This document shows, in pieces, positions 58,262 to 64,000 of a DNA stretch of 64,000 bases; within the stretch, counting starts at the first letter, position 1; every line of letters begins with the position of its first letter. The position numbers and the translations under genes are program-made. The DNA is taken from the NCBI RefSeq assembly GCF_022690685.1, contig NZ_JALCYY010000003.1:1-64000 (forward strand), written 5' to 3'. This DNA is from Anaeromyxobacter terrae. GTDB lineage: Bacteria; Myxococcota; Myxococcia; Myxococcales; Anaeromyxobacteraceae. The notes under the pieces were generated by a model, which did no database searches, was not told the origin of the DNA, and saw only the letters and a program-made list of their open reading frames with translations.

Positions 58262-59545
58262 TCACACCCCCGCGAGCGTCAGCGCCCAGCGGACCGCCCC
58301 GGCGGTGACGAGCACGACGACGGGGCTCACGCGGAAGCGCGACAGCGTGAGCGTGGTCGCGACGGCGATCCCGACCTCGGCGGGCCCGCGCATCGACGCG
58401 CCGAGGGTGACGGCCGCGGCGGCCATGAGCCCGACGACCGCCGGGGTGAGCCCGCGCAGCGCGGCCCGGATCGCGCGGCGCGAGCGCATGCGGAGGAGCC
58501 AGCCGCCGAGCACCACCACGAGCGCGAACGGCGCGGCGAAGATCGCGGCCGTCGCCACGATTGCGCCCGGGAACCCGCGCGCGACGTAGCCGATGAAGGT
58601 CGCCATGAGGAGCACGGGGCCGGGCGTGAGCTTCCCGACGGCGACGGCGTTCGTGAACTGATGCTCGGTGATCCAGCCGGCATCGACGACCGTGGCGTGC
58701 AGGTGGGGGACGATCGCGAACCCGCCCCCGTACGCGCCGAGGCCGGTGCGGAAGAAGAGCGCCCCGAGCGCCACGAGCCCGCCCAGGCCGACCTGGGTGA
58801 CGAGGCCGAGGGGAGCCACCGCGGCGAGCGGCGCGCTCTCCTCGGCGGGGCGCGTCTCGCTGAGCGGCTCGAGCCGCTGGCCCTCGTCCGGCAGCGCCAC
58901 CGGCGGCGACGGCCTGCGAGGCGCCCGGCGGATGCGGGCGAGCCGCGCGCGCTTCAGCAGGAGATCGATGACGAGTCCGGAGGCGATCCCGAGCCCCGCG
59001 ATCTCGCCGGAGGCCGCCCCGCCGGCGATGCTGAGCAGGAGCGCGATGGCCGCGACCCCCATCTGCCACGGCCGCCCGATTGACGTCCGGACCATTTGCA
59101 GCGCGAGCGCCGCCACGATCCCCACGACCGCCGCGTTGAGGCCGGAGAGGACGACCTCCGCGCGCGGCGCGACGCCGAACCGGACGTAGGCCCACGCGAG
59201 CGCGAGCGTCAGCAGCGCGCCCGGCAAGACGAAGCCGACGTAGGCGGCGAGCGCGCCGCTCATCCCGCGCAGCCGGAGGCCGATGTGCGCGAGCGCGTTC
59301 GCGGCGGCGCCGCCCGGGAGCATCTGCGAGACCGTCGAGGTGTTCGTGAACTCCCGCTCGGTGAGCCAGCGGCGGCGCTCGACCGCGAGGTGCCCGATCA
59401 TCCCGAGCACGCTCACGCCTCCGCCGAACCCGACGAGCCCGAGCCACAGCGACGCGCGGGCGAGCTCCCAGTGGGTCGGGATCGAGCGGGTCGTGGTCGC
59501 GGTCCGCTCGTGCGCTCGCTGGCCCTCGGTCCTCGCCCTCAGCAT
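58262..59545 (-). CDS. chrA: Chromate transporter ChrA, two-domain form
   Basis: A 427-residue CHR-family protein made of two homologous halves (about 25-200 and 240-425), each with an FGGG / AYGGG and PGP- or PGG-type motif (TVSQMLPGGAAAN and AVGKLTPGPVLL). The family exports chromate or sulfate-like oxyanions. The linker (~200-240) is charged. It is divergent from the methyltransferase gene. Confidence 0.9.
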   Translation of the reverse strand: MLRARTEGQRAHERTATTTRSIPTHWELARASLWLGLVGFGGGVSVLGMIGHLAVERRRWLTEREFTNTSTVSQMLPGGAAANALAHIGLRLRGMSGALAAYVGFVLPGALLTLALAWAYVRFGVAPRAEVVLSGLNAAVVGIVAALALQMVRTSIGRPWQMGVAAIALLLSIAGGAASGEIAGLGIASGLVIDLLLKRARLARIRRAPRRPSPPVALPDEGQRLEPLSETRPAEESAPLAAVAPLGLVTQVGLGGLVALGALFFRTGLGAYGGGFAIVPHLHATVVDAGWITEHQFTNAVAVGKLTPGPVLLMATFIGYVARGFPGAIVATAAIFAAPFALVVVLGGWLLRMRSRRAIRAALRGLTPAVVGLMAAAAVTLGASMRGPAEVGIAVATTLTLSRFRVSPVVVLVTAGAVRWALTLAGV

Positions 59546-59703
59546 CGTCGTATCCCGAGCGATGAGACGAGCGCGGCGGCGTCGCGACTCCGTCGCGCGC
59601 GCAGCGTCCCGTCCCTGGCGCGGCTCTGCATACCAGGGTCGAGGCGCGCCCGCCACGAACCTCCGTGCTTCCCGCTGGCTCTCCCGGGGGCGAGACTCTC
59701 GAC

Positions 59704-60351
59704 ATGGCCTGCCCCGGCGACGCTCCCTCGGACCTCGACCGCGCACTCGAGGCGCGCTACTCCCCCCTCGCGACTGCGGCGGGCTCGCTCTCCTGCGGGA
59801 GCGTGCTCGAGCACGCCGCGCCGCGCGCGGGCGAGACGCTCGTCGACCTCGGCTGCGGGCGAGGCCGGGAGCTCCTGCGCGCCGCCGGCGCGGTCGGCCC
59901 GGGCGGCCGCGCGATAGGCGTGGACGCGAACGAGGCGATGATCGCGGGGGCGAGCGCGCTCGCCGCGGGCCTCGCGCAGGTACGCCTCGTGCGCGCGGAC
60001 GTCGCCACGGTGCCGCTGCCCGACGGCGAGACCGACGTCGTCGTCTCGAACTGCGCCATCAACCACGCGCCGGACAAGGCCGCCGTGTACCGCGAGGTGC
60101 ACCGGCTGCTCCGGCCCGGCGGGCGGTTCGTCGTCTCCGACGTGGTCTCCGAGTCCACGCTCCCGGACTCCGTCCGCAGCGACCCGGCCGCATGGGCCGC
60201 CTGCTACGGCGGCGCGATCCCCGAGGCGGACTACCTGGCGGCGATCACGGCCGCGGGCCTCGCCGACGTGAGCGTCGTGCGCCGCACGGCGCCTTACGAG
60301 AAGGGCGGCGTGCGCGTCCTCTCGATCACCGTGAAGGGCCGGCGCCCGTAG
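59704..60351 (+). CDS. ArsM-like SAM-dependent methyltransferase
   Basis: A 215-residue class I methyltransferase. Motif I is VDLGCGRGREL (48-55 region), then VVSNCAINHAPDKAAVYREVHRLLRPGGRFVVSD; Cys117 and Cys167 (AWAACYGGAIPEADYL) occupy positions similar to conserved cysteines in arsenite methyltransferases, so thiol-bound metalloid or thiol substrates are plausible. ATG 59704 is the start. The radical SAM gene begins 18 bp downstream; this gene opens the cluster. Confidence 0.85.
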   Translation: MACPGDAPSDLDRALEARYSPLATAAGSLSCGSVLEHAAPRAGETLVDLGCGRGRELLRAAGAVGPGGRAIGVDANEAMIAGASALAAGLAQVRLVRADVATVPLPDGETDVVVSNCAINHAPDKAAVYREVHRLLRPGGRFVVSDVVSESTLPDSVRSDPAAWAACYGGAIPEADYLAAITAAGLADVSVVRRTAPYEKGGVRVLSITVKGRRP

Positions 60352-60369
60352 CGCCGGGGAAGGTCTCCG

Positions 60370-61722
60370 ATGCGGCTCTCGCGCTCCACCCTCGTCGCGC
60401 CCATCCCCGGCTCGCCCCGGGTGCTCCTCGTGCAGCCGCTCACCGGCCAGGCGGCGCTCGTCTCGGCCGAGGACGCCGCCGCCCTCCGCGAGCTCACGCG
60501 GGGCGGCGCGCTCCCGGCGTCGTTGCCCGAGGAGACCCTCCGCGCGGCGGCGTTCGTCGTCGAGTCCGACGAGGACGATCGGGCGCTGCTCGAGCGCGCC
60601 CGCGCGGAGTTCGAGCGGGAGGCGGCTCGGGCGCCGACGCAGCTCATCGTCGTGCCGAGCTTCGGCTGCAACCTCGCCTGCACCTACTGCTACCAGGAGG
60701 TCTTCGATCCCTCCGCGGCGGCGCTGATGGCGCCCGAGGTCATCGATGCGTTCTTCGCCTACGTCGACGCGAACCACGCCGCCGAGACCCCGCGGCCGTA
60801 CGTGACGCTCTTCGGCGGCGAGCCGCTGCGCGACACGCCCGCGCACCACGACCGGATCGGCCGCTTCCTCCGCCGCGCGGCGGAGCGGGGCCTCGCGCTC
60901 GCCTTCGTCACGAACGGCCACGATCTCGAGGCGTTCCTCCCGGCGCTCGCCGCAGGTCCGGTGAAGGAGGTGCAGGTCACGCTCGACGGCCCGCGGCCGG
61001 TCCATGACGCGCGCCGGCCGCACGCGAGCGGGCGAGGCACCTTCGACCGGATCGTGTCGGGCATCGACGCGCTCGTCCGCGCCGGCATCCCCGTGAACCT
61101 CCGCGTCGTCGCGGATCGCGGGAACCTGCCGGCGCTCCCGGAGCTCGCCGAGCTCGCCGCCGCGAAGGGCTGGCTCGAGCTCCCGGCCTCGCGCTTCAAG
61201 ACCCAGGTGGGCCGGAACTACGAGCTGTTCGGCTGCGCCTCCCGCCAGCGCCGCGAGGACCTCTTCGACCGCGTGGAGCTCTGGGCGCGCTACCTCGAGC
61301 TCGCCGAGGCGCACCCCATCCTTCGCCGCTTCCACAGGCCACGGTTCCACGGGATCGGCCACCTCGCCGACACGGGCGAGTTGCCGGCGCCGAACTTCGA
61401 CGCCTGCCCGGCCGCGAAGAAGGAGTGGGCCTTCGGCCCGGACGGGAGCCTGTACGGCTGCACGGCGACCGTCGGCCACCCGGCGCACGTGCTCGGCCGG
61501 TACCACCCGGTCGTCTCCCGCGACGACGCCGCGATCGCCCGCTGGCGCGCGCGCAGCACGCTAACGATCCCGCGCTGCGCCGAGTGCGCCGCCGCGCCGG
61601 TGTGCGGGGGCGGGTGCGGCGCGATCGCCTGGGATCGGGAGGGGACCCCGCTCGCGCCGGACTGCCGGCCGGTGCCCGAGCTCTACGGCCTGGGGGCGCG
61701 CTACTACGGCCTCGACGCGTGA
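60370..61722 (+). CDS. Radical SAM/SPASM peptide-modifying enzyme (putative)
   Basis: A 450-residue radical SAM protein. CNLACTYC (Cys100, 104, 107) binds the SAM cluster, LFGGEP follows, and the C-terminal SPASM domain has Cys346, GSLYGC (Cys364), CAEC (403, 406), Cys412, Cys416 and Cys432 in the full CX9-15GX4C...CX2CX5CX3C...C pattern for two auxiliary clusters. The N-terminal ~90 residues may be a peptide-recognition region. SPASM enzymes of this layout usually modify small peptides, and two very small cysteine-rich proteins lie downstream. The substrate is inferred from that. Confidence 0.93.
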   Translation: MRLSRSTLVAPIPGSPRVLLVQPLTGQAALVSAEDAAALRELTRGGALPASLPEETLRAAAFVVESDEDDRALLERARAEFEREAARAPTQLIVVPSFGCNLACTYCYQEVFDPSAAALMAPEVIDAFFAYVDANHAAETPRPYVTLFGGEPLRDTPAHHDRIGRFLRRAAERGLALAFVTNGHDLEAFLPALAAGPVKEVQVTLDGPRPVHDARRPHASGRGTFDRIVSGIDALVRAGIPVNLRVVADRGNLPALPELAELAAAKGWLELPASRFKTQVGRNYELFGCASRQRREDLFDRVELWARYLELAEAHPILRRFHRPRFHGIGHLADTGELPAPNFDACPAAKKEWAFGPDGSLYGCTATVGHPAHVLGRYHPVVSRDDAAIARWRARSTLTIPRCAECAAAPVCGGGCGAIAWDREGTPLAPDCRPVPELYGLGARYYGLDA

Positions 61723-61868
61723 GCGGCTGGCGCGGAGAAGCGGACCTGCGCAGCCCACATCTCGGGTGAACCCACGGGGCTGCGACCTCGTGTCGCGAAC
61801 CCCACCCGCTTCGAGCGGCTCGTACCGGGTGGCGCGAGGATCCGACGCACCCGTTCCTGGAGGCGCAC

Positions 61869-62054
61869 ATGGTCCCCGCGGCAACGCAGACGGTCCTCAC
61901 GCTCTCCCCGCGGGAGCTGCGGATCATGGTCCAGTCGCTCGTGAACTGTCTCGCGACTTGCCAGACACATGCGGTGAAGCCGGACGCACCGTGTGAGGAC
62001 TGCGACGCCGCACGCGCCCTGAAGGAGAAGCTCGAGTCCCACCTCGAACCCTGA
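61869..62054 (+). CDS. Four-cysteine small protein (61 aa)
   Basis: A 61-residue protein with TGGAGG five bases before ATG 61869. Two helices flank Cys27, Cys31, His34, Cys42 and Cys45 (CLATC, then PCEDC), a possible metal or cluster site. It has no signal peptide. It lies 12 bases before the 34-residue peptide gene and may be its partner or a second substrate of the radical SAM enzyme. No family is recognised. Confidence 0.72.
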   Translation: MVPAATQTVLTLSPRELRIMVQSLVNCLATCQTHAVKPDAPCEDCDAARALKEKLESHLEP

Positions 62055-62065
62055 AGGAGAGCGCG

Positions 62066-62170
62066 ATGAAGCTCCTCACCACGCTCAAGAAGCCCACCTG
62101 CTGCGCGCCGGAGAAGGTCGCGCAGTGCTGCGCCAAGGCATCCCCGCTCGTGTCGGGCTGCCACGACTGA
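62066..62170 (+). CDS. 34-residue cysteine-rich peptide, candidate modified-peptide precursor
   Basis: A very short gene with AAGGAGA seven bases before ATG 62066. The peptide is MKLLTTLKKPT followed by CCAPEKVAQCCAKASPLVSGC and HD: Cys12, 13, 21, 22 and 32, five of 34 residues. The N-terminus is a short basic/hydrophobic leader-like part, and the Cys pairs form the core. It sits between the four-Cys gene and a thioredoxin, downstream of a radical SAM/SPASM enzyme, so it may be a RiPP precursor or metal-binding peptide. No in-frame TGA (selenocysteine) is present. Confidence 0.75.
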   Translation: MKLLTTLKKPTCCAPEKVAQCCAKASPLVSGCHD

Positions 62171-62176
62171 AGCACC

Positions 62177-62192
62177 GCGGGGTCCGCCCCGC
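62177..62192 (+). promoter_or_regulatory. Stem-loop after the peptide gene
   Basis: GCGGGG/CCCCGC around TCCG begins seven bases after the peptide stop. It lacks a U-run, so it may only attenuate downstream transcription or protect the upstream mRNA. Confidence 0.5.
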
Positions 62193-62261
62193 ACCCTCCC
62201 TCACCCTCACCCTCCGGTAGCCGGGCCACCCGGCGCGGGAGGGGCTTGCCTGGAGATCCGA

Positions 62262-62597
62262 ATGTCCGCAGCCGTCGAGGAGATCAGCGCGAACCAGTAC
62301 GACGAGCGGGTGCTCGGGGCCGAGACCCCGGTGGTGCTCGACTTCTTCTCCACCGAGTGCCCTCCGTGCGAGGCGCTCGCGCCGAAGTACGAGGCCGTCG
62401 CCGAGCAGTTCGCGGGGAAGGTCCGCTTCCTCAAGATCTTCCGGCAGGGGAACCGCGAGCTCGCGACGAGGCTCGGTGTGAGCGGCAGCCCCACCCTCCT
62501 CTTCTTCAAGTCCGGCCGGGAGGTCGGGGCGCGCATGACCGGCGAGGACATCAAGCGGTCCGCGCTCAAGTCCGCGGTCGAGGCGCTCCTCCCGTGA
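62262..62597 (+). CDS. Thioredoxin with CPPC active site
   Basis: A 111-residue thioredoxin fold: [21 protein letters not shown] with Cys33 and Cys36, and [14 protein letters not shown] with the cis-proline. The CPPC dipeptide replaces the common CGPC, which changes redox potential in this family. It lies directly before the reductase-like gene (17 bp), so they act together. Confidence 0.9.
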
Positions 62598-62614
62598 GCC
62601 CGGAGACTCCTGCC

Positions 62615-63535
62615 ATGTCGGAGCGTTACGACGTCGCCATCATCGGGGCTGGACCGGCCGGGCTGACCGCCGGCATCTACGCGGCGCGCGCGCGGCTCAG
62701 GACGATCGTGCTCGACGAGAGCGTCCCCGGCGGGCAGGTGAAGACGACGCACAAGGTGTCGAACTACCCCGGGTTCCCCGAGGACGTCCACGGCTCGGAG
62801 CTCTCCGCGGCGTTCGCAAGGCAGGCGGAGCGCTTCGGCGCGCGGATCCGCCGCTCGGTGGAGATCACCGCGCACGACCTCTCCGCCTTCGTGAAGACCC
62901 TGGAGCTCGACGAGTCGGAGACGGTCGAGGCGCGCGCCGTCATCGTGGCCACCGGCGCGAAGCCCCGACCGCTCGGCGTCCCCGGGGAGGACACGTTCAA
63001 GGGGCGCGGCATCTCCTACTGCGCGACCTGCGACGGCGCCTACTTCGAGGGGAAGGACATCCACGTCATCGGCGGCGGCAACTCCGCCGTGGAGGAGGCG
63101 CTCTTCCTCACGCAGTTCGCGCGGAGCGTCACCATCGTCCACCAGTTCGAGCAGTTCCAGGCGGAGCCCGCCTCGGTGGGCGAGGCGCTCACGAACCCGA
63201 AGATCCGCGTCCTGTTCGGCCACGAGCCGCGCGCCTTCCACGGCGAGACCGCGCTCGAGGCGCTCGAGGTCGAGGCGCTGCGGACCCGCGAGCGCAAGCG
63301 GCTCCAGACGGACGGGGTGTTCGTGTTCGTCGGCATGGTGCCGCGGACCGACCTCCTCGCGCGCTACGTCGAGCTCGCGCCGGGGGGCTACGTCGAGACG
63401 ACCGACGCCATGGAGACGAGGATCCCCGGCGTCTACGCGGCGGGCGACATCCGCGTGAAGCGGTTCCGGCAGATCACCACGGCGGTCGCCGACGGCACCA
63501 TCGCCGCGCTGGCGGCGCAGAAGTACCTGCGCTGA
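62615..63535 (+). CDS. trxB: Thioredoxin reductase-like flavoprotein without the NADPH arginine motif
   Basis: A 306-residue two-domain TrxB: FAD motif GAGPAG near 11, VATGAKPRP, the CATC disulfide (Cys136, Cys139), the GGGNSA loop and the C-terminal AAGDIRVK. The HRRxxFRA motif that binds the NADPH 2'-phosphate in E. coli TrxB reads HQFEQFQA here (176-183), with all three arginines gone. The electron donor may be NADH, ferredoxin or another carrier. The start is ATG 62615. Confidence 0.88.
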
Positions 63536-63541
63536 GAGGTC

Positions 63542-63587
63542 GCGGCGCGGCGCGTCCTTCCTCTCCGCCCAGGACGCGTCGCGCCGC
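63542..63587 (+). terminator. Long hairpin after the cluster
   Basis: GCGGCGCGGCGCGTCCT pairs with AGGACGCGTCGCGCCGC (17 bp, one G-T) around a 12-base loop. It is a strong, U-less terminator-like structure closing the cluster. Confidence 0.65.
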
Positions 63588-63642
63588 CCTCCGTCTCGTG
63601 TTAAGGCACGTCCCGCCGCGCTCCCGCGGCGAGGAGACCCCC

Positions 63643-64000
63643 GTGCGCATCCTCCACACCATGCTCCGCGTCGGCGACCTCGAGCGCTCCGTCGCGTTCT
63701 ACACCGAGGTCCTCGGGATGAGGCTCCTGCGCCGGCAGGACTTCCCCGACGGCCGCTTCACCCTCGCCTTCGTGGGCTACGGCCCGGAGTCCGAGCAGGC
63801 GGCGCTGGAGCTCACGCACAACTGGGACACGAAGGCGTACGACCTCGGCAACGGGTACGGCCACGTGGCCCTCGAGGTGCCGGACGCCTACGCCGCGTGC
63901 GCGGAGATCAAGCGGCGCGGCGGCGTCGTCACGCGCGAGGCGGGGCCGATGAAGCACGGTACGACCGTCATCGCGTTCGTGCAGGATCCCGACGGCTACA
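63643..64000 (+). CDS. gloA: Lactoylglutathione lyase (glyoxalase I), 3' end outside window
   Basis: GTG-initiated, with GAGGAG upstream. It reads [25 protein letters not shown], then [22 protein letters not shown] and FVQDPDGY at the window edge, all glyoxalase I signatures. It detoxifies methylglyoxal-glutathione hemithioacetal. The last ~10 residues and the stop are not in the window. Confidence 0.92.

Follow-up and report, generated by a model that had tools for sequence, protein, structure and literature searches.

Gene organization of the locus

The window analyzed here is the whole 64,000-nucleotide stretch of contig NZ_JALCYY010000003.1 of Anaeromyxobacter terrae (positions 1–64,000, forward strand), whose genome has a size of 5.65 Mb. 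Six open reading frames (ORFs) on the plus strand at positions 59704–63535 form the cassette described in this report. They encode an ArsM-like methyltransferase (MT) dependent on S-adenosylmethionine (SAM), a radical SAM/SPASM protein (rSAM), a small protein with four cysteines, a peptide with five cysteines, a thioredoxin (Trx) and a thioredoxin reductase-like flavoprotein (TrxB) (Table 1). With moderate confidence, the cassette is read as resembling those for ribosomally synthesized and post-translationally modified peptides (RiPPs) and as making a conserved intracellular peptide that would be active towards thiols or metalloids.

Table 1. Cassette features in window coordinates.
Feature	Position	Strand	Length	Basis
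ArsM-like SAM methyltransferase (MT)	59704–60351	+	215 aa	Pfam/NCBIfam, 4kw7 alignment
Codons of MT C31, C117, C167	59794–59796, 60052–60054, 60202–60204	+		4kw7 alignment
Radical SAM/SPASM protein (rSAM), predicted peptide maturase	60370–61722	+	450 aa	Pfam/NCBIfam, CteB matches
Codon of rSAM C289 (GRNYELxxC motif)	61234–61236	+		Homologue alignment, structure model
Four-Cys helical-hairpin protein, CxxxC...CxxC	61869–62054	+	61 aa	Orthologues, AF2 model
Five-Cys peptide, probable RiPP precursor	62066–62170	+	34 aa	Orthologues, conserved core
Peptide C-terminal core AQCCAKASPLVSGCHD	62120–62167	+		Cross-phylum conservation
Thioredoxin (Trx), active site CPPC	62262–62597	+		Pfam Thioredoxin
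TrxB-like flavoprotein, redox CATC	62615–63535	+		TRX_reduct, TIGR01292
Strong hairpin 3′ of trxB	63536–63591	+		−42.1 kcal/mol, z −5.5

The intergenic gaps are 18, 146, 11, 91 and 17 nt. An earlier reading of this DNA from its letters alone (the sequence-only reading) had described six co-directional, closely spaced genes as a candidate system. The ORFs are confirmed in position and strand, and their forming one functional unit is backed by the co-occurrence and the shared loci across phyla reported below. The hairpin behind trxB has no T run; the transcription unit likely ends there. On the other side, the ORF 5′ of the MT gene runs in the opposite orientation. Because the cassette is bounded by this ORF and the hairpin, the six genes plausibly form one transcription unit. 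A defence system was considered and rejected, since PADLOC matches are at superfamily level only (viperin, methyltransferase domain).

Conservation of the 34-residue peptide

Neither of the two small proteins has a convincing match in Pfam or NCBIfam (June 2026, here and below), and the peptide matches no model of either collection. Peptide orthologues from relatives are 67–100% identical, and the ratio of nonsynonymous to synonymous polymorphism (pN/pS) is 0.145 for the last 19 codons in 20 copies. The corresponding value for a segment of the 61-residue protein is 0.29. Shine-Dalgarno-like sequences precede both small ORFs. These sequences, the orthologues, the low pN/pS and the conservation across phyla identify both ORFs as genuine genes.

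Across phyla, the C-terminal part of the peptide follows the consensus A-[QL]-C-C-[AS]-K-x-[SA]-x4-G-C-H-[DN], positioned directly before the stop codon. The N-terminal part differs between loci in both its length and its residues. A regular expression for the core and the stop codon matched 85 loci (Myxococcota, Bacillota, Bacteroidota and Spirochaetota) a single time each, and three permuted motifs gave no match, which excludes a chance origin. Only the three core cysteines are universal; the N-terminal pair is missing from many Bacteroidota peptides. Conservation is higher in the core than in the rSAM enzyme, which is only ~40% identical between phyla. The 34-residue ORF, which the sequence-only reading had counted as part of the system, is thus its most constant component.

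A further copy of the peptide gene, an orphan, is present in Desulfosporosinus metallidurans (L186:6824–6937, minus strand). It lies directly 3′ of nadB-nadC-nadA-like genes and remote from any second rSAM gene.

Co-occurrence of peptide and radical SAM enzyme

A scan of 84,980 genomes yielded 180 rSAM relatives, and the best 80 were retained as loci. These loci belong to the same four phyla as the core motif. Bacillota carriers include Carboxydothermus, Desulfosporosinus, Thermoanaerobacterium, Paradesulfitobacterium and Sinanaerobacter, and Bacteroidota carriers include Paludibacter. The named genera live anaerobically. The peptide is encoded in the fetched stretch of 76 of the 80 loci, which cover four phyla. 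Among the four loci without it, two are from genomes with the peptide on another contig, one has a sequence that starts 131 bases upstream of the rSAM gene, and one (L088) seems to be a true case of absence.

Two panels of genomes gave the same picture. In 60 relatives, searched for rSAM at E ≤ 1e-40 and for the peptide at a stringent level, 19 genomes including that of A. terrae have the enzyme and 18 of these have the peptide (both, peptide only, rSAM only, neither: 18/0/1/41; Fisher p 2e-14). The second panel comprised 74 genomes of the Bacillota order containing D. metallidurans. Both genes are present in 17 genomes, the peptide alone in 0, a short rSAM fragment alone in 1 and neither in 56 (Fisher p 8e-16). 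Gene order and strand are shuffled between the loci of relatives; thus, the linkage of peptide and enzyme is not mere synteny. The sequence-only reading had named rSAM homologues consistently found without any small Cys-rich gene as the observation that would contradict it. Such homologues are nearly absent, and the reading was not refuted in this respect.

Peptide, rSAM, MT and usually Trx and TrxB are shared by loci from at least four phyla. The cassette is wider in distribution and older than an oddity of Anaeromyxobacter. In a tree of the rSAM proteins, the Bacillota cluster together and the branching mostly follows the phyla. Some Myxococcota genomes branch near the Bacteroidota. This topology, which long branches make uncertain, is consistent with an old cassette and some transfer.

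The radical SAM/SPASM enzyme

The rSAM protein contains Radical_SAM and SPASM domains, and its match to TIGR04085 is above cut-off. The core cluster motif CxxxCxxC comprises C100, C104 and C107. Seven further cysteines belong to the SPASM domain (residues 346, 364, 403, 406, 412, 416 and 432). Together with C289, these ten cluster cysteines are invariant in 86 of 86 homologues, so that eleven cysteines are strictly conserved. C289 is part of an invariant GRNYELxxC motif and lies outside both cluster motifs. In the AlphaFold2 (AF2) model, which has a predicted local distance difference test score (pLDDT) of 89, it is located in the sole stretch of very low confidence and may be a mobile catalytic residue.

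The best PDB sequence match is CteB (5wgg, E 2.9e-19), and CteB entries (5why/5wgg) also occupy ranks 1–3 of the fold comparison with a TM-score of ~0.65. The complete SPASM domain noticed from the sequence alone is real, and the enzyme is of the peptide-maturase type. Two hallmarks of a RiPP system with an rSAM/SPASM maturase are present, namely a linked short precursor gene and the CxxxCxxC motif with the full set of SPASM cysteines.

No NCBIfam equivalog model claims the enzyme. Its best relatives in this collection are maturases of Cys-rich peptides (TIGR04463, TIGR04280 (geopeptide) and CefB), with scores that reach roughly one fourth of the respective cut-offs. It does not belong to a curated thioether-maturase family either, as the scores against the SCIFF maturase model (72.5, cut-off 425) and the PapB model (92.9, cut-off 340) are far too low. 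For PapB, three cysteines are listed for auxiliary cluster 1 (AC1) and four for AC2 (PMC10470005). The seven SPASM cysteines of the cassette enzyme are spaced much as in PapB and would map onto this arrangement.

Several clostridial loci add a Cys-rich domain akin to MbdU (NCBIfam; a metal-binding double selenoprotein), either fused to the rSAM protein or encoded after it. Fusions are found at L109:7992–10367, L110:7965–10100 and L117:7992–10142. Carboxydothermus has the MbdU-related domain as a separate gene (L103:9362–10054).

The ArsM-like methyltransferase

The MT gene adjoins nearly every rSAM gene, and in the A. terrae genome its product is the sole ArsM-family match at E ≤ 1e-40. Residues C31, C117 and C167 align with C72, C174 and C224 of CmArsM (4kw7). 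In enzymes of this type, these are the cysteines that bind As(III) (PMC12608789, PMC7248198). The triad is invariant in the homologues of the MT (83/83, 85/85 and 85/85, respectively). By contrast, the position of C51 varies, with Cys in 50 homologues and Ser in 33. Because the triad is selectively kept, a functional metalloid or thiol site is suggested.

The protein covers about positions 60–232 of the 272-position ArsM model NF008823 and reaches ~168 bits, below the cut-off of 263. Owing to this partial coverage and the score, the enzyme is ArsM-like and no ArsM by the curated criterion. The kinship to arsenite methyltransferases proposed in the sequence-only reading holds for the three As(III)-binding cysteines, all of which are kept; it does not extend to the N- and C-terminal regions, which are missing.

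A longer ArsM-family match with one in-frame TGA is found in other genomes of the Anaeromyxobacter group and in one further relative (L192, L193, L194 and L206). These proteins are possibly selenocysteine-containing ArsM enzymes that are separate from the cassette.

The thioredoxin pair and the four-cysteine protein

Trx and TrxB are encoded in most loci, and in Bacteroidota and many Bacillota they are joined in one 422-residue fusion protein. The active site of Trx is C[PAS]PC among homologues. TrxB matches TRX_reduct above cut-off and TIGR01292 with 348.3 bits (cut-off 343.45). Its best PDB match is 2q7v. The CATC redox centre is kept, and HQFxxxxA takes the place of HRRxxxR; the two arginine positions are mostly Gln and Phe in 76 homologues. 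In classical thioredoxin reductases, HRRxxxR binds the phosphate of NADPH. With this motif replaced, the electron donor of TrxB may be other than NADPH. Thioredoxin, thioredoxin reductase and NADPH are the established reductant of the ArsM orthologue AS3MT.

The A. terrae genome also encodes a Trx paralogue (L081:7900–8397, minus strand) that has lost the first active-site cysteine (KESKAC for TECPPC). No cassette lies alongside it.

The 61-residue protein has orthologues in 26 loci of Myxococcota and Bacillota, all with the four cysteines, and none was found in the Bacteroidota loci. Its AF2 model (pLDDT 84.6) consists of two helices, for which a fold search returned generic helical hairpins only. 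The sequence-only reading had listed this protein as a member of the system. It is a conserved gene, and given its absence from Bacteroidota it is an accessory component.

Gene neighbourhoods

The neighbours of the cassettes lean towards sulfur and thiol chemistry. They include rhodanese (16), DUF1847 (16), DUF302 (7), extra thioredoxins and a gene of the Pyr_redox_2 family. Across the neighbourhoods, no exporter, protease or immunity gene recurs. Assignment to an arsenic operon was rejected, since no consistent ars genes are found near the cassettes.

A gene for a 145-residue protein with an IS1595-type zinc ribbon lies divergently near the MT gene in 20 cassettes, mostly of Bacteroidota (e.g. 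L159:6283–6717). It is possibly a regulator.

Proposed pathway and alternatives

In the pathway considered here, the 34-residue peptide would be a precursor composed of a variable N-terminal leader and a nearly invariant C-terminal core. The CteB-like rSAM enzyme would bind the leader and modify the core, most likely at cysteines, either by a thioether cross-link or by another Cys-centred oxidation. Trx and the atypical TrxB would keep the core thiols and the cysteines of the MT reduced. The MT, through its three-Cys site, would methylate either the peptide, rich in thiolates, or a metalloid that the peptide holds. The product would remain in the cell as a cofactor- or carrier-like molecule and not act as an antibiotic.

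The linkage and the conservation make the peptide very probably the substrate of the rSAM enzyme. A Cys-centred modification is probable in view of the CteB-like architecture and the three universal cysteines; thioether, thiooxazole and other products cannot be distinguished at the level of sequence. We infer an intracellular product. A cofactor or carrier is favoured over an antibiotic because the core hardly changes, the named genera are anaerobic, and the neighbourhoods show no exporter, protease or immunity gene that recurs. We propose only tentatively that a soft metalloid, for example As(III), takes part. Since the neighbours are mainly sulfur and thiol genes and ArsP-like permeases are rare, arsenic is regarded as a possibility and not as a conclusion. 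A more specific version, with a metalloid such as As(III) held by the peptide thiols, methylated by the MT and covalently linked into the peptide by the rSAM enzyme to give an organometalloid cofactor or carrier, appears improbable.

Several observations weigh against the proposed pathway. One relative with a 98% complete genome (L088/G018) keeps rSAM, MT, Trx and TrxB and has no detectable peptide, through either loss or an assembly gap. In one clade of Bacteroidales (L139, L146 and L157), no Trx or TrxB gene is adjacent. Arsenic genes do not dominate the neighbourhoods, and ArsP-like permeases occur in few loci. As no leader-cleaving protease or exporter is seen in the cassette, the division into leader and core follows from conservation only.

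A route to an organoarsenical, comparable to those of ArsM/ArsS and ArsM/ArsL, is an alternative. The peptide would be a thiol carrier of As(III), the MT would methylate the arsenic and the rSAM enzyme would add a carbon group to it, leaving the peptide unmodified or modified only via arsenic. An ArsM enzyme and a radical SAM enzyme are paired in the synthesis of arsenosugars and of arsinothricin. The invariant triad of the MT, the thiols offered by the CC and GCH motifs of the peptide and the match of Trx/TrxB to the known reductant of ArsM-type enzymes fit this route as well. It is nevertheless unlikely: the MT remains far below the ArsM cut-off and has lost both terminal regions, consistent arsenic genes are missing near the cassettes, and the rSAM enzyme resembles peptide maturases.

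The near-perfect co-occurrence with the rSAM enzyme speaks against a metallothionein- or chaperone-like function, in which the unmodified peptide would bind a soft metal, Trx and TrxB would act as reductants, and rSAM and MT would act on something encoded elsewhere. Three to five cysteines and a histidine within a short peptide would suit such a role, as would the genes for DUF302 proteins, rhodaneses and metal permeases in the vicinity of some cassettes. Simple metal binding does not, however, need the conserved Lys, Ser, Gly, His and C-terminal Asp or the fixed spacing to the stop codon, and the N-terminal Cys pair is missing from many Bacteroidota peptides. This function is hardly probable. 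A RiPP of the sactipeptide or ranthipeptide kind that is secreted as an antimicrobial or a signal, as a CteB-like maturase next to a small Cys-rich precursor might indicate, is very improbable, because the cores of antimicrobial RiPPs usually diversify, the core described here hardly varies over four phyla, and no exporter, protease or immunity gene recurs nearby.

For the RiPP-like cassette, a core of 16 residues that is nearly frozen in four phyla while the enzymes drift to ~40% identity points to a product whose chemical role is fixed. Conserved peptide-derived products of this sort are known in few cases, typically pyrroloquinoline quinone (PQQ) and mycofactocin. The cassette raises the question of whether the substrate of an ArsM-fold enzyme can be a ribosomal peptide, or a metalloid bound by such a peptide.

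Comparison with known systems

The systems of CteB/SCIFF, the ranthipeptides and PapB share with the cassette the fold and sequence of the rSAM enzyme, the set of cysteines for three clusters and a nearby gene for a small Cys-rich precursor. Unlike CteB/SCIFF and PapB, the cassette has an ArsM-like MT, Trx/TrxB, the invariant C289 and a precursor that matches no model. ArsM and AS3MT (CmArsM, 4kw7) have the methyltransferase core and the three As(III)-binding cysteines in common with the cassette MT, which is shorter and below the cut-off.

An rSAM/SPASM enzyme of the SbtM type acts on a short peptide containing Cys or Sec in the thio(seleno)oxazole RiPP system SbtA/SbtM (PMC11002830). This system is the nearest conceptual relative of the cassette, likened by description and not by sequence; no Sec is seen in the cassette. 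The candidate of an Sbt-type thiooxazole precursor was rejected. The whole A. terrae genome has no match at E ≤ 1 to TIGR04081, which we take to be the selenobiotic (Sbt) precursor model.

Mycofactocin and PQQ provide an analogy. They likewise combine a short, near-invariant precursor with its own rSAM/SPASM enzyme and are spread over unrelated phyla. In contrast to these systems, the cassette has no recognised carrier of the PqqD type, protease or dehydrogenase partner, and its chemistry would centre on cysteine.

The sequence-only reading had not recognised this combination as a described system, and none was found in NCBIfam or in the open-licence papers searched. These papers yielded no description of the peptide or the gene set; a description in other papers is possible. 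The pairing of a peptide-maturing rSAM enzyme, an ArsM-like MT and a private Trx system thus looks undescribed and is matched by no NCBIfam model or open-licence paper found.

Flanking genes

Upstream of the cassette, a gene on the minus strand (58262–59746) encodes a ChrA-like transporter, as judged by eye. The downstream flank (63643–63999) encodes a protein of the glyoxalase family.

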